Source: Bacteroidaceae bacterium (GTDB lineage Bacteria; Bacteroidota; Bacteroidia; Bacteroidales; Bacteroidaceae). Taken from it: a stretch of 61,118 bases of DNA. The notes below the pieces were generated by a model. The model made no database searches. It saw only the letters and a list, made by a program, of their open reading frames with translations, and was not told where the DNA came from. The position numbers were made by a program, and so were the translations under genes. This document shows, piece by piece, positions 49,618-61,118 of this stretch. Location: contig JAFSRW010000037.1 in NCBI GenBank assembly GCA_017445925.1, positions 1 through 61,118 on the forward strand, written 5' to 3'. Positions within the stretch are counted from its first letter, which is position 1; each line of letters opens with the position of its first letter.

Positions 49618-49656
49618 GCATGACAGATAACCGTCAGCATTTTTGTCTTTGTTCCC

Positions 49657-49775
49657 GTCTTGAACTTTTGAACGTCTTGAACTTTTGAACGTCTTGAACT
49701 TTTGAACGTCTTGAACTTTTGAACGTCTTGAACTTTTGAACGTCTTGAACTTTTGAACGTCTTGAACTTTTGAAC
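49657..49775. repeat. Seven perfect 17-bp tandem repeats
   Basis: GTCTTGAACTTTTGAAC is repeated seven times without a mismatch (119 bp). It lies between the terminator at 49617 and the stop codon of the RND-linked outer-membrane gene at 49791. The unit holds the inverted pair TTGAAC and GTTCAA-like half sites. Related words (CTTGAACTTTTTGAACC) recur at 60.43-60.47 kb. Perfect identity suggests recent expansion. Confidence 0.95.
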
Positions 49776-49790
49776 GGTTAGCGTTAACGT

Positions 49791-56119: not shown

Positions 56120-56469
56120 TTATAATTTTGTTTGTCTTTTTATAATAAGGTTTCTTAATGATTCTTTGAAGCCTTCCTCAAAGATGGGCGGTTCGTCGGG
56201 ATGGGATTTCAGGTAATCCTCTTCCAGTTTGTCAAGCAGCTCTGCTATCAGTTCCCATTTACGATAATCCGGTAACTTTGGCTTCTTCAGAAAGTAACGT
56301 ACTAAGATGTAAGCCTGCCATAAGGCAATTACACCTCTTTACTAAAACGACTCTGGGTTTTCCGCCCAATATGGGCAACGCAGAGGTTACGCACAGTAGC
56401 CTGTGCATCCATGTCGATCATGTCTTTGAGCATGGCAAGAAACGACTGTGTGAACATGAATTGTTCCAT
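56120..56469 (-). pseudogene. Small gene split by a frameshift
   Basis: An ATG at 56469 opens a 46-codon frame (MEQFMFTQSFLAMLKDM...) that stops at 56329. A second frame begins in the same place, shifted, and runs about 65 codons to a stop at 56120 (IALWQAYILVRYF, LPDYRKWELIAELLDKLEED, HPDEPPIFEEGF). Dropping two bases in the GTGTA run at the junction joins them into one protein of about 113 residues with an even helical character. I do not recognise the family. It diverges from the RepA-like gene. Either the gene is broken, the read has an error, or the ribosome shifts here. Confidence 0.55.
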
Positions 56470-56554
56470 TGTTCTTTTCTTTTTTTTAATTGTTAAACCT
56501 AGGGTGTGTTACTAATACCCGTTAAAAAAAGTAAAAATACTATTAATCTGTGTC

Positions 56555-56607
56555 CCCCTAGGGGAGCACAAAAGTTGTGCAAATGTATGTCGTTTTTCCG
56601 AACTTTG
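56555..56607 (+). promoter_or_regulatory. Paired palindromes and promoter-like box upstream of the RepA-like gene
   Basis: A perfect CCCCTAGGGG palindrome (56555-56564) is followed by GCACAA-AAG-TTGTGC (56566-56580). A GAACTTTG box (56600-56607), one base from the -7 consensus, is 22 bp past a TTG. The second palindrome covers the -33 position, as an operator would. The start codon is at 56683. Confidence 0.45.
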
Positions 56608-56682
56608 CATCGGTTTGTAAGAGAAAATAAAAGTTTTGTGAATTAATTTTCAAAATCAACAAATATTTAAAGAAATTTTATT

Positions 56683-58107
56683 ATGGACAACGAAGCTTTC
56701 AATTTGGTTAAGGGTAGGCTGGCTATACACAACCAGGCTGCCAAGAAGCTCACGCCTTGCGATGAACTGCTGCAATATAGGGTTATGCCCGAAACGGAAT
56801 TGCCTCCATTGGAGTTCCTGTTCAAGATGAACGGAGTGGAATGTTTCCCGCGAGCTGAACTTGTGGCAAATACAGGAAAGGCAAAGAGTGGTAAAACGTT
56901 CTTTCTGTCTATCGTTATGGCATGCTGCCTGAAGAAAAATGTGCTAGGCTTAGAGCGAGTACGAGACACCCCCATTCGTGTCTTGTGGTACGATACTGAA
57001 CAAAGTGCCCAGTCAACACAGAAAATCCTTGTCAATCGCATCATTCCTCTTTCGAGATGTCTGAAGGAAGAGGGGATCAACCTTAACCCTAACCTTAACC
57101 TTAACCCTGAAGAAGGAAGATGTAAAAAGGAAGATGAAGAAAATGTTCAATGTTCAATGTTCAATGATCAATGTAAAGAAGACTCTAATCTAAACGACCA
57201 GTTCTTTGTTTTCAACGTCCGAGGTATCGGTTGGGAGAAACGGCGTGAACTCTTAGCTACTGCTATTAATGAGATTAAGCCAGATTTGGTGATAGTGGAC
57301 GGAATCAAAGACCTGATAACTGATATCAATGACGGTACACAGGCAACAACAGTTGTTGAAGATCAGATGGGGCTGGCACAGACTTACAACTGCTGCATTG
57401 TGGATGTTCTTCATCAGAACAAAAATGATGCAGACCGTAATATGCGTGGCTGGATTGGAACAGAACTGACCAACAAAGCTTTCGAGGTATGGTCGTGCGC
57501 TATTGTATCCAATACAGACACTTTTAAAGTGGAGCAGATTATGTCTCGAATGAAGCGCTGCGAGGAGAATCTCTACTACCAGCTTGATGACAATGCACTG
57601 CCCGTTTCCTGCCAGAAACCCGACGAACAGCCACGCGACCCTGCTAGCGGTAGGTATATTTCAAAAAAGAATGACAAAACAGGAGATGAAAAGAAACAAA
57701 AATACAAGGTTGACTGGGCTAAGTTGAACCGTGATTATATCCTGCCAAATGATAGTAAGGAACCCATGGCTCCAGAGGATATCCCATGGGATTTGGGAAG
57801 GCTGTTTACGGATGCCATGGAAGGATGTTCTTTCTTGCGTTTTGCTCCGTTAATGGCAGTAACCATGCGCATCTCTTGTATCGAGGACCGAAATTACTAT
57901 TACCAACTGTTGGAGCGTGCAAAGAAAGAGCATTATCTGACACCCGGAAAGGATATGTCTGGTCAGCAGGGATTCTATCTAGTCACACCAGATCAGCGTA
58001 AACGCATCATTGCTACCGAGGAAGAGGAGCACCGCAAACAACAGGAACCTGTACAGGGTGAACTTCCCTTCAATAAACCAGAAGAAAATGGAACCGCTCC
58101 CTTCTAG
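56683..58107 (+). CDS. RepA-like RecA-fold ATPase/helicase with an in-frame repeat insert
   Basis: A 474-residue P-loop protein of the AAA_25/RepA-helicase group. Walker A is TGKAKSGKTF near 65-74, a strand RVLWYDTEQ follows, Walker B is LVIVDGIKDL near 205, and a sensor-like VDVLHQNK comes later. The last 130 residues include winged-helix-like sequence (FTDAMEGCSFLRFAPLMAVT). Residues 132-172 (INLNPNLNLNP..., QCSMFNDQC) do not belong to the fold and are encoded by the short repeats that fill the nearby gaps. Genes of this type drive replication of plasmids and integrated elements; here it heads the DUF6371/DUF4248/HU/smalltalk cassette. Confidence 0.8.
   Translation: MDNEAFNLVKGRLAIHNQAAKKLTPCDELLQYRVMPETELPPLEFLFKMNGVECFPRAELVANTGKAKSGKTFFLSIVMACCLKKNVLGLERVRDTPIRVLWYDTEQSAQSTQKILVNRIIPLSRCLKEEGINLNPNLNLNPEEGRCKKEDEENVQCSMFNDQCKEDSNLNDQFFVFNVRGIGWEKRRELLATAINEIKPDLVIVDGIKDLITDINDGTQATTVVEDQMGLAQTYNCCIVDVLHQNKNDADRNMRGWIGTELTNKAFEVWSCAIVSNTDTFKVEQIMSRMKRCEENLYYQLDDNALPVSCQKPDEQPRDPASGRYISKKNDKTGDEKKQKYKVDWAKLNRDYILPNDSKEPMAPEDIPWDLGRLFTDAMEGCSFLRFAPLMAVTMRISCIEDRNYYYQLLERAKKEHYLTPGKDMSGQQGFYLVTPDQRKRIIATEEEEHRKQQEPVQGELPFNKPEENGTAPF
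57076..57198 (+). repeat. Repeat-derived insert inside the RepA-like gene
   Basis: 123 bp, 41 codons: four AACCTT/AACCCT-type hexamers in a row, then GAAGGAAGATG-type words, then three near copies of AATGTTC. Each element has close relatives in the gene-free stretches at 58.7, 59.2 and 60.3-60.9 kb. The host reading frame stays open throughout. Confidence 0.8.
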
Positions 58108-58109
58108 AC

Positions 58110-58180
58110 AGCCCCTCCCCCTATATATCGCCCTTTTTTATTTATATAAAAAAAGGGCTAGAGAGATATATATAGGGGCT
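58110..58180. repeat. 71-bp imperfect inverted repeat between the RepA-like and DUF6371 genes
   Basis: Outer arms AGCCCCT (58110-58116) and AGGGGCT (58174-58180) match perfectly. An inner ATATAT pairing and a CCCTTTTTTA/TAAAAAAAGGG stem (58131-58140 with 58147-58157) continue the symmetry around a TTATATA centre. It fills almost the whole gap after the RepA-like stop codon. It could be a terminator/attenuator, a small palindromic element or part of an origin. Confidence 0.75.
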
Positions 58181-58228
58181 ATGTCTGAAGGCCGCCGAGC
58201 CGACCAAAAAAGGAAAAGAGAGTTATGA
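58181..58228 (+). CDS. 15-codon leader frame overlapping the DUF6371 start
   Basis: An ATG directly after the inverted repeat opens MSEGRRADQKRKREL, and its TGA overlaps the next ATG (ATGA at 58225-58228). The overlap would couple ribosome flow into the DUF6371 gene. Whether the peptide matters itself is unknown; it is very basic. Confidence 0.35.
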   Translation: MSEGRRADQKRKREL

Positions 58229-59187
58229 AGCCATTAAAAGAATTGTTGGAACGCTGTTCGTTCAAGACTATAGGACGTAGTATGAATCTTGATGTATCTC
58301 TCATCAATGGAGAACTCTATATCAGTCCTCTAACCACAGACATAAATCATCATCTTGACTTCGCTCTTCCTTCCATGAAGATGGTTGAGGCATGTAGGGC
58401 CGACGATTTCGATTTCTTCCAGCCCTTCATAAATGCCGGTAAACTAACAGAAGAGAATATGCACCACGCCGCAGAGCGCTATTACTTAGGCAAGACCAGA
58501 AGCGGCAGACCTATTTTCTGGATGATAGATGACACGCTGGACCCTCAGGATGCCCGAATAGTAAACCCAGATAACTCCGACACTTGGATATCAACGCTCC
58601 TAAAAACCCGCGAACCCTTCATCCAGTATTGGTGCCCCACACACTGCCTGTTTGGCTTGCATTTGTTGAGGGAAGATGGAAGAAGTAAGATGGCTGAGGG
58701 AAGAAGTCTGAGGGCAGATGGAAAAAATAATGTTCAATGTTGGCCTTCGGCCGAGCCTGCTCACGCTCGGGATAGCCTAAGCAAGCTTAGCTCTCCTCTC
58801 GCTCAATCGCAGCCTTCAACGTTCAATGTTCAATGGAAGCCTAGCATTTGCATCGTTGAGAGCGAACAGGCTGCCGTGGTGCTGAGTGAGTTGTTTCCCG
58901 AAAGTATCTGGATGGCTTATGCTACGGTGGCACATCTGGAGGTCGACCTCTTTGCCCCATTAGAAGGACGCACTGTAACGCTATTTCCCTGTACTGACCC
59001 CTATATGTCCAACTATCTTTTCTTTAATGACCTTGCGGCAGCGGTTCACAAGCAGTATCCCTCCATCCATATCACCGTGGATTCCATTCTGGAGGATAAT
59101 GCCACAGACGAACAAAAGTCCCGCTGCATAGATCTCGTAGACTTCTTATTTGAAGGACAACCCCTTCAAAAGGTTCAAGAAGTTTAA
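58225..59187 (+). CDS. DUF6371 (primase/toprim-like) protein with repeat insert
   Basis: A 320-residue protein. The N-terminal half has the family elements AAERYYLGKTRSGRPIFWMID and CLFGLHLL (141-148). The C-terminal half has a toprim-like core: ICIVESEQAAVVLSELFPES, then LEGRTVTLFPCTDPY, where family members usually have a P-D pair; here Cys replaces the Asp position, which may weaken catalysis. Residues 150-203 are foreign to the family and encoded by repeat words. The C-terminus (KVQEV) is also read from GGTTCAAGAAGTT repeats. It is presumed to act with the RepA-like ATPase in DNA replication or priming. Confidence 0.7.
   Translation: MKPLKELLERCSFKTIGRSMNLDVSLINGELYISPLTTDINHHLDFALPSMKMVEACRADDFDFFQPFINAGKLTEENMHHAAERYYLGKTRSGRPIFWMIDDTLDPQDARIVNPDNSDTWISTLLKTREPFIQYWCPTHCLFGLHLLREDGRSKMAEGRSLRADGKNNVQCWPSAEPAHARDSLSKLSSPLAQSQPSTFNVQWKPSICIVESEQAAVVLSELFPESIWMAYATVAHLEVDLFAPLEGRTVTLFPCTDPYMSNYLFFNDLAAAVHKQYPSIHITVDSILEDNATDEQKSRCIDLVDFLFEGQPLQKVQEV
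58672..58833 (+). repeat. Repeat-derived insert inside the DUF6371 gene
   Basis: 162 bp, 54 codons: GAAGATGGAAGAAGTAAGATGG-like words, AATGTTCAATGTT, then a 100-bp unit with short dyads (GGCCTTCGGCC, CTCACGCTCGG, AAGCAAGCTTAGC, CTCTCGCTCAATCGC) and a closing GTTCAATGTTCAATGG. The flanks CLFGLHLL and ICIVESE are normally close together in this family. Confidence 0.8.
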
Positions 59188-59335
59188 GGGTTCAAGGGGT
59201 TTAAGACTTTGGCCCTTGGCTATTGGCTATTCCATTAACCTACTAAGCTATTAAGCTATTGAGCAGATAAGCTCTTGAACAGTTAAGGTTAAGGTTATGG
59301 TTATCGTACGAAGTTAACGTTAGCGTTGAAAAAAA
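59163..59335. repeat. Repeat-filled gap before the DUF4248 gene
   Basis: From the end of the DUF6371 gene: TTCAAGAAGTTTAAGGGTTCAAG-type words, then TTGGCTATTGGCTATTCC and AAGCTATTAAGCTATTGAGC repeats, then GTTAAGGTTAAGGTTATGGTTATC and GTTAACGTTAGCGTTG hexamers. No gene is visible in the 195-bp gap. An A-rich leader precedes the next start. Confidence 0.8.
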
Positions 59336-59382
59336 CAACTTAGAAAAAAAAATATTTAACTTAATTAGCAACAAAAAACAAC

Positions 59383-59604
59383 TTGATTATGTTTAAGATT
59401 CAACCATACGGCAAATCGGAACTTGCCCTCCTGTATTTCCCCAATGCCGCAACAGTCAGTGGTGCTCTAAGCAACCTCAACTACTGGATTCGTCGTAATA
59501 AAGCGTTGAGCAAGGCACTGAAGAAGTGCGGTATGCCTCCCCGTTCCAAGTCTTTCACCCCAAAGGAAGTTGCTCTTATCATAGAACACTTGGGAGAACC
59601 GTAA
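59383..59604 (+). CDS. DUF4248 protein
   Basis: A 73-residue protein. FKIQPYGKSELALLYFP near the start and SFTPKEVALIIEHLGEP at the end are the two conserved blocks of DUF4248, found in Bacteroidota beside HU-like and replication-type genes. The layout suggests a small helical, possibly DNA-binding protein; function is unknown. The start could be ATG 59389 (MFKIQ), two codons later; the window shows no ribosome-binding site to decide. Confidence 0.82.
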   Translation: MIMFKIQPYGKSELALLYFPNAATVSGALSNLNYWIRRNKALSKALKKCGMPPRSKSFTPKEVALIIEHLGEP

Positions 59605-59677
59605 GAAAAAAATGCTTTTAAATTGATTCTAACGTAAGTGTTTAAGGATAATCGTAACGGCCCCTCCCCACATGTCG

Positions 59678-59685
59678 TACCTTTG
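59678..59685 (+). promoter_or_regulatory. -7 box upstream of the HU-like gene
   Basis: TACCTTTG followed by GCATCG-like sequence, as in the tRNA promoter of this window. No TTTG is found 20 bp upstream, so an activator or another spacing may be used. The HU-like start is about 98 bp downstream. Confidence 0.5.
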
Positions 59686-59782
59686 CATCGTCAATGAAAC
59701 ACATTGATAGAGTGTATGAAAATGCAAGTCGCGCGGTAGCAAATTTTTCACTCTTCATTCTTCACTTTTAATTTTACAAAAA

Positions 59783-60337
59783 ATGGTCCGTTACATTCTC
59801 AAACAAATCAAGATTGCTTCAAGCCGTGCTTACGGCAAGTGGTTTGCCAAGAACGTGGTAGAGGAAACCATCGACTTGGATGGTCTTGCCGAGCACATGA
59901 GTAACCACAACAGTCCCTACAGCAAGGGCGTTATCAAAGGGCTGCTGACCGACATGATTGGCTGTATCAAGGAACTTCTTTTGGAGGGTAAGAACGTCAA
60001 GATTGACGACCTGGCTATCTTCAGCCTCGGCATCAAGAACAAGTTGGCTGCCAACTCAGAAGACGAGTTCACCGTCTCTAAGAATGTTGAAGGTGTCAAG
60101 CTCCGTGCACGTGCAACCGGCGAGTTGATGAGCAAGACCCTGAATCTGGAGGCTACCCTGAAGAAAGCCCAGTACATCAATGGCAAGCTGACAAGCACTG
60201 ATGACAACGCTAACGTTAACCCTAACGCTAACCAAGGCGGTGGTGACAACACCAACCCTAACGTTAACCCTAACCCTAACGAGGGAGGCGGTGACAACCC
60301 AGGCGGCAACGACGATCCCGGAGCAGACGAAGATTAA
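59783..60337 (+). CDS. HU-like DNA-binding protein with a hexamer-encoded Asn/Pro/Gly tail
   Basis: Residues 1-125 match the histone-like HU/IHF relatives of Bacteroidota (VRYILKQIKIASSRAYGKWF, MIGCIKELLLEGKNVKIDDL, AIFSLGIKNK, VKLRARATGELM). The tail, about 138-184, is low complexity: N-A-N-V-N-P-N-A-N, then NTNPNVNPNPNEGGGDN and an acidic end. The asparagine-rich part is encoded by AACGCT/AACGTT/AACCCT hexamers, each two codons, so copy number can change without a frameshift. The gene follows DUF4248 and precedes the smalltalk gene, a recurrent order in this phylum. Confidence 0.87.
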   Translation: MVRYILKQIKIASSRAYGKWFAKNVVEETIDLDGLAEHMSNHNSPYSKGVIKGLLTDMIGCIKELLLEGKNVKIDDLAIFSLGIKNKLAANSEDEFTVSKNVEGVKLRARATGELMSKTLNLEATLKKAQYINGKLTSTDDNANVNPNANQGGGDNTNPNVNPNPNEGGGDNPGGNDDPGADED

Positions 60338-60344
60338 AGATATA

Positions 60345-60765
60345 TGATGTAAGAGGGAAGATGTAAGATGTGGTACTTATGGTTATCGGTTAACGGTTAT
60401 CGGTTATTGGTTATAGAAGTCAAGAGGCGAGGGCCAAAATCTTGAACTTTTTGAACCCTTGAACATCTTGAACCAGAAGTTAGCCAATATCCACAGCCAA
60501 TGGCCAATAGCCATAGTTCATAAACCATGAACCACAATTGTGTCCGGGGTGAGGCGAGGAGACAACCGTAAGGGTTTTCATGAACCATGAACCCTTAACC
60601 ATGAACCAACCAATCTCTCCTGAACGCTGCCTGCGCACTTACATCACCCCTCTTCTTTAAACGCTAACGTTAACGATAACCAACAGCCAACAGCCAAAGT
60701 CGCTAACCGCTAACCGCTCAACGCTAACCGTTATTCAATAACCCATAACCTATAACCTTTTAACA
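60345..60765. repeat. 437-bp gap made of mixed short repeats
   Basis: In order: GATGTAAGAGGGAAGATGTAAGATG; GGTTATCGGTTAACGGTTATCGG hexamers; CTTGAACTTTTTGAACCCTTGAAC words; CCAATATCCACAGCCAATGGCCAATAGCC words; two ATGAACCATGAACC-like blocks; CGCTAACGTTAACGATAACC and CGCTAACCGCTAACCGCTC blocks; CCTATAACC at the end. No credible gene is seen. It separates the HU-like and smalltalk genes. Confidence 0.85.
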
Positions 60766-60774
60766 TTATATAAT

Positions 60775-60879
60775 ATGAAATTCAACTGGTCAACAATCAA
60801 GAAGATTATTCAGATTCTTATCACTATCCTTACCTCTGTAGTCGGTACCCTCTGCGTACAGTCGTGCATGCACTCTTAA
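60775..60879 (+). CDS. Smalltalk protein (34 residues)
   Basis: A very short membrane peptide: a basic amphipathic start (MKFNWSTIKKII), one hydrophobic helix (about 11-27) and a Cys-containing end (CVQSCMHS). Length, the FNW-x3-KKI start and the LTSVVGTLCVQSC pattern fit the Bacteroidota smalltalk family, usually found after an HU-like gene and before an amidase gene. Its function is unknown. The next gene would lie beyond the window edge. Repeats begin directly after the stop codon. Confidence 0.82.
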   Translation: MKFNWSTIKKIIQILITILTSVVGTLCVQSCMHS

Positions 60880-61068
60880 CGTTAACCCTAACCTTAACGT
60901 TAAGTGTTCAAGAAGTTCAAGAGGTTCAAGAAGTTCTAGTTTACAGTTCAACTATCATTAATCCTCCTACGCCTATCGGCGAGAGATCTATCAGATCCAG
61001 TTTCAACGTTAACGATAACCCTAACGATAACTTTTTTGTTCTCACGGAAATCACGGAAATCACTGAAA
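60880..61068. repeat. Hexamer and 9-bp repeats at the window end
   Basis: AACGTT/AACCCT/AACCTT hexamers directly after the smalltalk stop, then three 9-bp GTTCAAGAA/GTTCAAGAG units (about 60907-60937), later AACGTTAACGATAACCCTAACG, and three TCACGGAAA-type 9-bp units at 61042-61068. No gene with coding character is seen here. Confidence 0.8.
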
Positions 61069-61118
61069 TGGATTCTCTTTTTCAAATAAACAACGCAGTA
61101 AAAGATGTTTAGGCGTAC

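Follow-up and report, generated by a model that had tools for sequence, protein, structure and literature searches.

Non-coding repeat words lying in frame within genes of a rumen Prevotella-type genome suggest that protein segments are being rewritten by spreading DNA

The STRR repeats of cyanobacteria are heptameric simple sequence repeats. Short arrays of 7-base units have been described as TAACTGA in Beggiatoaceae, GGGAATC in Xanthomonas and GGGGATT in Nostoc, occupying many intergenic sites with a patchy distribution between species (PMC4679880, PMC4692102). In Beggiatoaceae the arrays often lie directly before start codons, and the minority of heptamer arrays that fall within open reading frames (ORFs) are, for TAACTGA, mostly placed at protein edges (PMC4679880), while intergenic arrays vary in length and sequence between two Xanthomonas (PMC4692102). 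The Rickettsia palindromic elements (RPEs), about 150 bp long and grouped in ten families, are non-coding repeats that lie in frame within unrelated protein genes and leave the frame open (PMC10969869). Here we analyze a 61,118-nucleotide stretch of a Bacteroidaceae bacterium (contig JAFSRW010000037.1 of GenBank assembly GCA_017445925.1; the window), in which an earlier note made from the sequence alone had proposed that intergenic repeat words invaded two replication-type genes, one for an ATPase that it called RepA-like and one for a DUF6371 protein.

The genome to which the window belongs (G000) shares features with both systems. As in the heptameric repeats, 7-base tandem units are present above chance, and as with the RPEs, repeats lie in frame in unrelated protein genes. 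The Rickettsia comparison drawn in the earlier note is apt as an analogy. Unlike the described heptameric repeats, G000 has dozens of words, with hexamers and palindromes joined to them in composite inserts, several of its arrays are found within protein domains, in metabolic and secreted proteins alike, and a fixed coding site may hold a different word in a sister species. Unlike RPEs, most inserts are tandem arrays with no fixed ends or length, at sites re-used by different words; they form no palindrome of defined length and family, only 58742-58814 being palindromic in the two inserts. The text available from the sources on heptameric repeats and RPEs describes no case of one coding site that differs in its word between sister species, and searches of the open PubMed Central literature turned up no account of these words from Prevotellaceae. 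The nearest known kinds are heptameric simple repeats and RPEs; what is new is word swapping at fixed coding sites.

The draft genome that holds the window, as contig C93, measures 3.32 Mb (84% complete, 2.3% contamination). Relatives close to it are rumen Prevotella-type metagenome-assembled genomes, the nearest being locus L069 in a sheep rumen genome, G151, which is a sister species with 84-89% DNA identity to G000 over four aligned stretches. Our main sample of G000 covers 432 kb, comprising the window and 20 further stretches, and a control sample covers 16 unselected stretches (197 kb). Arrays were called with Tandem Repeats Finder as non-overlapping, and one was counted as in-gene when it lay well within an ORF of 150 codons or more. 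Searched genome-wide in G000, the word TTCAATGTTCAATG matched 131 times, overlapping matches included, while its reversed control gave 0; of these matches 100 were listed, and they alone occupy at least 57 separate places. The 432-kb sample contains 193 arrays, 119 of them with period 7, 14 or 21, compared with 3, 3 and 0 such arrays in three third-order Markov simulations, a more than 20-fold higher density. Periods 7, 14 and 21 account for 34 arrays in the unselected 197 kb (17.3 per 100 kb) and for 32.3 per 100 kb over 87 kb of G151, a density similar to that of G000, while 50 kb of E. coli K-12 holds a single array overall, of period 21. Array density is ∼11-fold higher outside called ORFs; still, 65 of the 193 arrays, of any period, lie inside ORFs. 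Across the family, TTCAATGTTCAATG is patchy, with matches in 25 of 151 genomes and at least 17 matches in seven. Besides G000, family genomes rich in the word (17-64 matches) are G017, G044, G065, G083 (genus g17), G096 and G078, and most relatives have none.

These counts bear on whether the arrays have spread or have simply arisen where they stand. If polymerase slippage alone were responsible, arrays would arise and grow in place, with heptads favoured by the polymerase footprint, as proposed by Mrazek and co-workers (reported in PMC4679880). Period 7 is dominant here, heptamers are reported to be the most common long simple repeats in most surveyed genomes, and array lengths rise and fall between G000 and G151. 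Slippage in place does not readily account for one word at so many separate places with a silent reversed control, for a G000 heptad vocabulary of 48 distinct words with a single dominant one, or for composite inserts that mix several words with a palindrome, and we consider it an unlikely explanation when taken alone.

Both inserts proposed in the earlier note exist and are built of genome-repeated words, and an ORF check agrees that the host frames stay open through them (Table 1). The two were said to be made of the same words; GAAGATG and AATGTTC are indeed common to both, whereas the hexamers occur in the ATPase insert only and the dyad in the DUF6371 insert only. The location given for the latter was right, and its bounds move from 58672-58833 to 58667-58844, with approximate ends. 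In the ATPase alignment (A1, the window protein and eight others), the insert segment is missing in 8/8 other sequences, including the paralogues of the same genome on contigs C48 and C68. For DUF6371, a paralogue on C68 with 91.8% identical DNA carries ∼36 nt of CAACTATCAACTGT units in place of the composite insert; this within-genome pair is our best evidence that the insert has been replaced. In DUF6371 relatives at 61-63% identity, the insert is missing (L071) or shorter, different stretches stand there (L110, L141).

Table 1. Word arrays, palindromic elements and their host genes in the window and in sampled stretches of G000 (L numbers denote loci; positions without an L number are those of the window)
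Feature	Position	Strand	Basis and remarks
AAA_25 ATPase gene, 474 aa, carries the first insert	56683..58107	+	Pfam PF13481, E 8e-11; alignment A1; model mean pLDDT 75.6
Word-built in-frame loop of the ATPase	57076..57198	+	Flanked by conserved DTEQS..ILVNR and FFVFNVR; 56 aa here
AACCTT/AACCCT hexamer array, ATPase insert	57079..57106	+	Tandem Repeats Finder
GGAAGATG-type words, ATPase insert	57109..57140	+	Repeat family D4, common to 58672-58721 and 60329-60364
(AATGTTC)4.7 heptad array, ATPase insert	57142..57174	+	Encodes NVQCSMF; not in sister G151; tandem-repeat and cross-species comparison
DUF6371 gene, 320 aa, carries the second insert	58225..59187	+	Pfam PF19898, E 8e-21, two matched stretches
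Composite in-frame insert of DUF6371	58667..58844 (ends approximate)	+	Flanked by HCLFGLHLL and CIVESEQAAV; alignment with C68 paralogue; loop 63 aa
GAAGATG/GAAGAAGTA-type units, DUF6371 insert	58667..58723	+	G151 content partly different; tandem-repeat and cross-species comparison
AATGTTC units, left of the palindromic element, DUF6371 insert	about 58729..58741	+	Sequence and repeat families
Dyad GGCCTTCGGCC, within the longer palindromic element, DUF6371 insert	58742..58752	+	Sequence
REP-like palindromic element (GAGCCTGCTCACGCTC ... CTCTCGCTNAATCGCAGCC), lodged between word arrays in the DUF6371 insert	58742..58814	+	Pattern search
TTCAACGTTCAATGTTCAATG array, right side of the DUF6371 insert	58815..58835	+	Repeat family D7
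Further copies of the palindromic element	L051:12729, L052:13724, L058:2273, L059:712, L062:8529, L064:3675		Pattern search
Gap occupied by TTCAAGAAG, GGCTATT, AAGCTATT, GTTAAGG and GTTAACG words	59165..59334	.	Sequence, repeat families, Tandem Repeats Finder
Hexamer words in frame, C-terminal tail of the HU-HIG gene (59783-60337), 48-nt tandem duplication	60205..60298	+	ORFs, Tandem Repeats Finder
Gap occupied by AAGATGT, TTATCGG, TTGAAC, CATGAAC and CGCTAAC words	60337..60776	.	Sequence, repeat families, Tandem Repeats Finder
Gap occupied by AACGTT/AACCCT, GTTCAAGAA and TCACGGAAA words	60877..61069	.	Sequence, repeat families, Tandem Repeats Finder
Signal-peptide-like N-termini, hydrophobic core heptad-coded	L052:4519-4549, L049:11999-12030, L054:18569-18600, L067:4534-4558
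Arrays in C-terminal tails beside YDLSGRK ... KKGIYI motifs	L049:9595, L051:10483, L053:18500, L055:5836 and 5904, L060:4460 and 4523, L064:16945, L066:3296, L067:1513, L068:18055

If the segments were ancestral parts of the proteins, homologues should carry the same residues at the same place. Homologues and own-genome paralogues instead lack the inserts or hold replacements, with the exception of the closest relative, L069, and there in part only: it has most of the DUF6371 insert in common with the window, while its ATPase loop has extra GAAGATGT units, two hexamers (12 nt) fewer and no AATGTTC array, with the frame kept. Differences between relatives are not confined to the presence or absence of words; often a fixed site holds another word. 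That note also placed the inserts in likely surface loops, and in our ATPase model residues 126-168 fall below 50 in predicted local distance difference test (pLDDT), between a confident helix (109-124) and strand (174-178). The modelled segment is compatible with a loop, and a segment without homologues would look alike; low pLDDT was expected here anyway, because the alignment had just nine sequences. Solved structures searched with the ATPase profile gave none at E 0.001.

The same two loops hold still other words in other Prevotella. They were surveyed across species in 81 sequences (the window and 80 loci), from which 61 ATPase loops and 54 DUF6371 loops were parsed; the remaining sequences were excluded because the motif patterns failed to match them. 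Both loops vary between species in length and content. The ATPase loop spans 11-100 aa (median 21; at least 30 aa in 19/61) and the DUF6371 loop 9-129 aa (median 16; at least 30 aa in 14/54). The word types of long loops differ between species and were typed by eye; they include CACGAAT/AATTCGTG, CACAGAAAT, CCCCTCCC hairpins, GAAGATG and GAAGAGT, among others. Of the loops that are 60 nt or longer, 30 of 55 contain an exact self-repeat of 9 nt, direct or inverted, compared with 376 of 2160 segments taken from the same genes as controls. The sequence AATTCGTGNAATTCGTG, of a word type held in the ATPase loops of G154, G155, G153 and G156, has 21, 12, 4 and 3 matches in these genomes, loop copies counted; elsewhere among the 17 genomes searched it has 5 in G161, at most 2 in others and 0 in G000, G151 and G010, and the reversed control has 0 in all 17. 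The loops at L138 and L079 (DUF6371) and L125 (ATPase) are very long, with a maximum of 129 aa, and consist of segments that repeat internally.

Arrays are found in genes well beyond the replication-type pair listed in the earlier note, and their hosts include metabolic and secreted proteins: PurL, dihydrolipoyl dehydrogenase, GcvP, GH2 and GH3. A Pfam match was obtained for 9 of 10 scanned hosts, namely a porin, a PKD/laminin-G protein, two CotH proteins, a GT2/DUF4922 protein, an esterase, a GH3, a U32 peptidase and a GH2, the last a beta-galactosidase at L061:12369-16436. Compared with solved structures, the array-coded loop is extended by 5 aa in dihydrolipoyl dehydrogenase and by 4 aa in GcvP subunit 1; for PurL, where the alignment shown spans array 1 only, there is no net gain. 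Across four genomes, PurL has a 21-aa insert in G000 only and another array in G000 and G151 only. The unselected 197 kb holds 8 in-gene arrays, 2 of which are ordinary KAEK-type coding repeats. Among 32 in-gene period-7 arrays, 28 have a sense unit free of stops, and 24 of those 28 have antisense stops (P 9e-5 for 24/28); of the other 4, three are stop-free on the antisense strand and one on neither. We read this coding-strand bias of the in-gene arrays as a selection filter.

The 432-kb sample yields at most 52 array-ORF rows. By our reading, 4 of them lie in signal-peptide-like cores and 11 close to C-terminal YDLSGRK-type motifs, which we take to be type IX sorting tails. Positions such as these raise the question of whether the words themselves are under selection, as regulatory sites or as functional protein segments. 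Some intergenic arrays, as we read them, finish at start codons, and for one of the four array-coded cores G151 encodes the hydrophobic core by another word: at L052:4519 the core is array-coded in both species, by MKRIALFLIIVQCSMFNVQCILAQD in G000 and MKRLLILLILHSSLLTLHLTMAQD in G151, giving VQCSMFNVQC and LHSSLLTLHL. The identity of the word at a site is nevertheless often unconserved between species or paralogues, and we regard a selected role as a highly improbable explanation of the words.

Turnover between the sister species was followed at 34 G000 heptad arrays aligned to G151 stretches or to L069, all of which were kept, several with poorly aligned flanks. The G151 segment is 7-periodic above the 99% null at 16/34 sites, with an essentially unchanged word at ∼4 by our reading, and it is less than half as long at 10/34. 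In a sigma-like gene, one site (L061:11385) has swapped words between G000 and G151, and the same is seen at L053:1421 and L052:8770. Over the matched stretches, TTCTCAATTCTCAA occupies 0 places in G000 versus 4 in G151, and TCTAAACTCTAAAC likewise 0 versus 4. Whole blocks are also present or absent: G000 alone has a 117-nt block of mixed words, and G151 alone has a C-rich hairpin of 30 nt inside a called ORF. G151 has an array density like that of G000, a different vocabulary, and other words at some common sites.

A palindromic element is embedded in the DUF6371 insert; the main class of repeat, however, is the heptad array and not the palindrome. We read 15 pattern matches as 7 copies in the 432-kb sample, mostly sitting between word arrays whose word varies by place, and the copy at L052:13707-13806 is a clean 100-nt presence/absence difference, found in G000 and not in G151. 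As a short palindromic dispersed repeat, this embedded dyad element resembles the REP elements of REP/RAYT systems. A discrete element with one clean difference between species is what would be expected if a classical non-autonomous transposon family (MITE/REP) carried the words with a transposase acting in trans. In contrast, arrays lack fixed ends or length, many occur with no palindromic element nearby, and Y1_Tnp (PF01797, the RAYT domain) has 0 matches in G000, which is 84% complete, other transposase families not having been searched. Carriage of the words by such a family is very unlikely.

A different source of arrays would be a telomerase-like reverse transcriptase, as in DRT10, synthesizing repeats that are integrated afterwards. 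DRT10 produces tandem-repeat DNA (PMC12632851), and RVT_1 (PF00078) is found in 4 of 8 genomes tested, G000, G078, G044 and G017, which are the TTCAATG-rich ones, and not in G010, which has one copy of the word. Against this, RVT_1 was found in none of G151, G152 and G153 despite the array density of G151 and many matches to the AATGTTC array in G151 and G152, an absence that is not firm because these are draft genomes; the G000 match (C24:7233-7754, L181) scores best with RT_UG17, and the repeats of DRT10 are 9 nt. Such an enzyme is extremely unlikely to be the engine here.

Two further candidates were rejected. The ATPase/DUF6371 pair itself does not fit as an engine, with ATPase homologues (E 1e-20) in 7/151 family genomes and the TTCAATG word in 25/151; no link between ATPase and word was seen, because of the seven genomes with at least 17 matches only G000 and G044 have the ATPase. 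For a phage origin, the ATPase matched helicase, recombinase and unknown families in PHROGs, and the other three proteins matched none. Viral contigs contain 12 distant ATPase relatives at 25-33% identity, and a single-sequence query found no DUF6371 relatives in them.

When 140 units were rotated and oriented for best fit, a common core near RTTKANN emerged with 6.57 bits, versus 4.36 (sd 0.09) with letters shuffled. Compared with means of 12-23% for shuffled letters, distinct words fitting RTTKANN number 21/48 in G000, a figure that is partly circular, 12/18 in G151, 3/5 in G078 and 0/3 in G010, and 18/74 in the other loci, where the excess is modest. Since the core is common to the words, homology-guided exchange between different words is plausible.

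Taken together, these data suggest that protein segments are being rewritten by spreading non-coding DNA, and overall they support the earlier interpretation of words spreading through DNA, genes included. The explanation that we judge probable is that non-coding words, mostly heptad arrays, spread, rewrite each other and persist in genes where tolerated. The words, heptads mostly with some hexamers and palindromic elements, would disperse through the genomes of the lineage and turn over fast, and they are in fact shared genome-wide. They would land in intergenic DNA and genes alike, and we find them in frame in identifiable proteins. Selection would then retain in-gene words that keep the frame, bring no stop on the coding strand and sit where they are tolerated, be it a loop, a linker, a signal-peptide core or a terminal tail; the coding-strand bias is observed. 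A site once occupied would often remain so as one word gives way to another, most likely through short homology-guided copying among related arrays, either ectopic gene conversion or template switching, with slippage within arrays assisting, and both presence/absence and replacement are seen between sister species and between paralogues. The copying mechanism, the neutrality of the inserts and the production of the proteins are steps that we infer.

Several points weigh against this explanation. The copying step itself was never observed, and slippage inside arrays could explain some concerted word changes. At five sites, one of them the signal-peptide core at L052:4519, different words keep the same register, with shift 0 giving the best identity of seven shifts each, but the five were selected visually for having nearly equal lengths, and alignment by itself tends to preserve register. 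Selection of stretches also matters: the 119 arrays of the 432-kb sample amount to 27.5 per 100 kb, inflated relative to the unselected density because 18 of the 20 stretches were picked for TTCAATG, and the 14 places in G000 versus 2 in G151 for TTCAATGTTCAATG over the matched stretches are inflated because the stretches were chosen via the same word. The 52 array-ORF rows are an upper count: some are coding repeats of the ordinary kind, such as those at window 13418 and 32327, and at least one array, at L052:18038, probably precedes the real start of its gene. For PurL, stretches resembling array 1 also occur in G151 and G078, and that array may be native. Among the other species, G157 (L085) has the loop type yet no AATTCGTG match, and the sole AATTCGTG match in G158 (L093) appears to be the loop itself. 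Finally, loop 10-mers are not enriched in the flanks of their loci (P 0.59 for 51 ATPase loops and 0.056 for 34 DUF6371 loops), with only single loops standing out.

A more specific form of the spreading explanation is possible, and we put it forward tentatively, as somewhat doubtful. The hundreds of arrays with an RTTKANN-like core would form one conversion network, in which the word that dominates in a lineage is written, in register, into sites already occupied, coding ones included. Proteins would thereby gain new segments, functional ones such as signal-peptide cores among them, from the non-coding dictionary that the species has at the time, and they would do so at permissive positions that stay fixed.

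Within the window, 14 of 24 tandem arrays are concentrated in 56150-61118. Apart from the two inserts of the earlier note, the tail of the HU-HIG gene is a third in-gene case there (Table 1). The top-scoring array of the window lies elsewhere, at 49656-49776, with seven perfect copies of the 17-nt unit CGTCTTGAACTTTTGAA.

If the spreading explanation is true, rumen bacteria receive new residues in metabolic and secreted proteins from non-coding repeats, fast enough for the change to show between sister species, and one protein site can be re-used by different words. The dispersal of short repeats without a transposase of their own would become a directly testable question, and the inserts would mark tolerant sites in proteins, as an insertion scan done by nature. 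For annotation this would be a warning, since differences between species in a loop may reflect repeat turnover, and the arrays could serve as fast markers for strain tracking.

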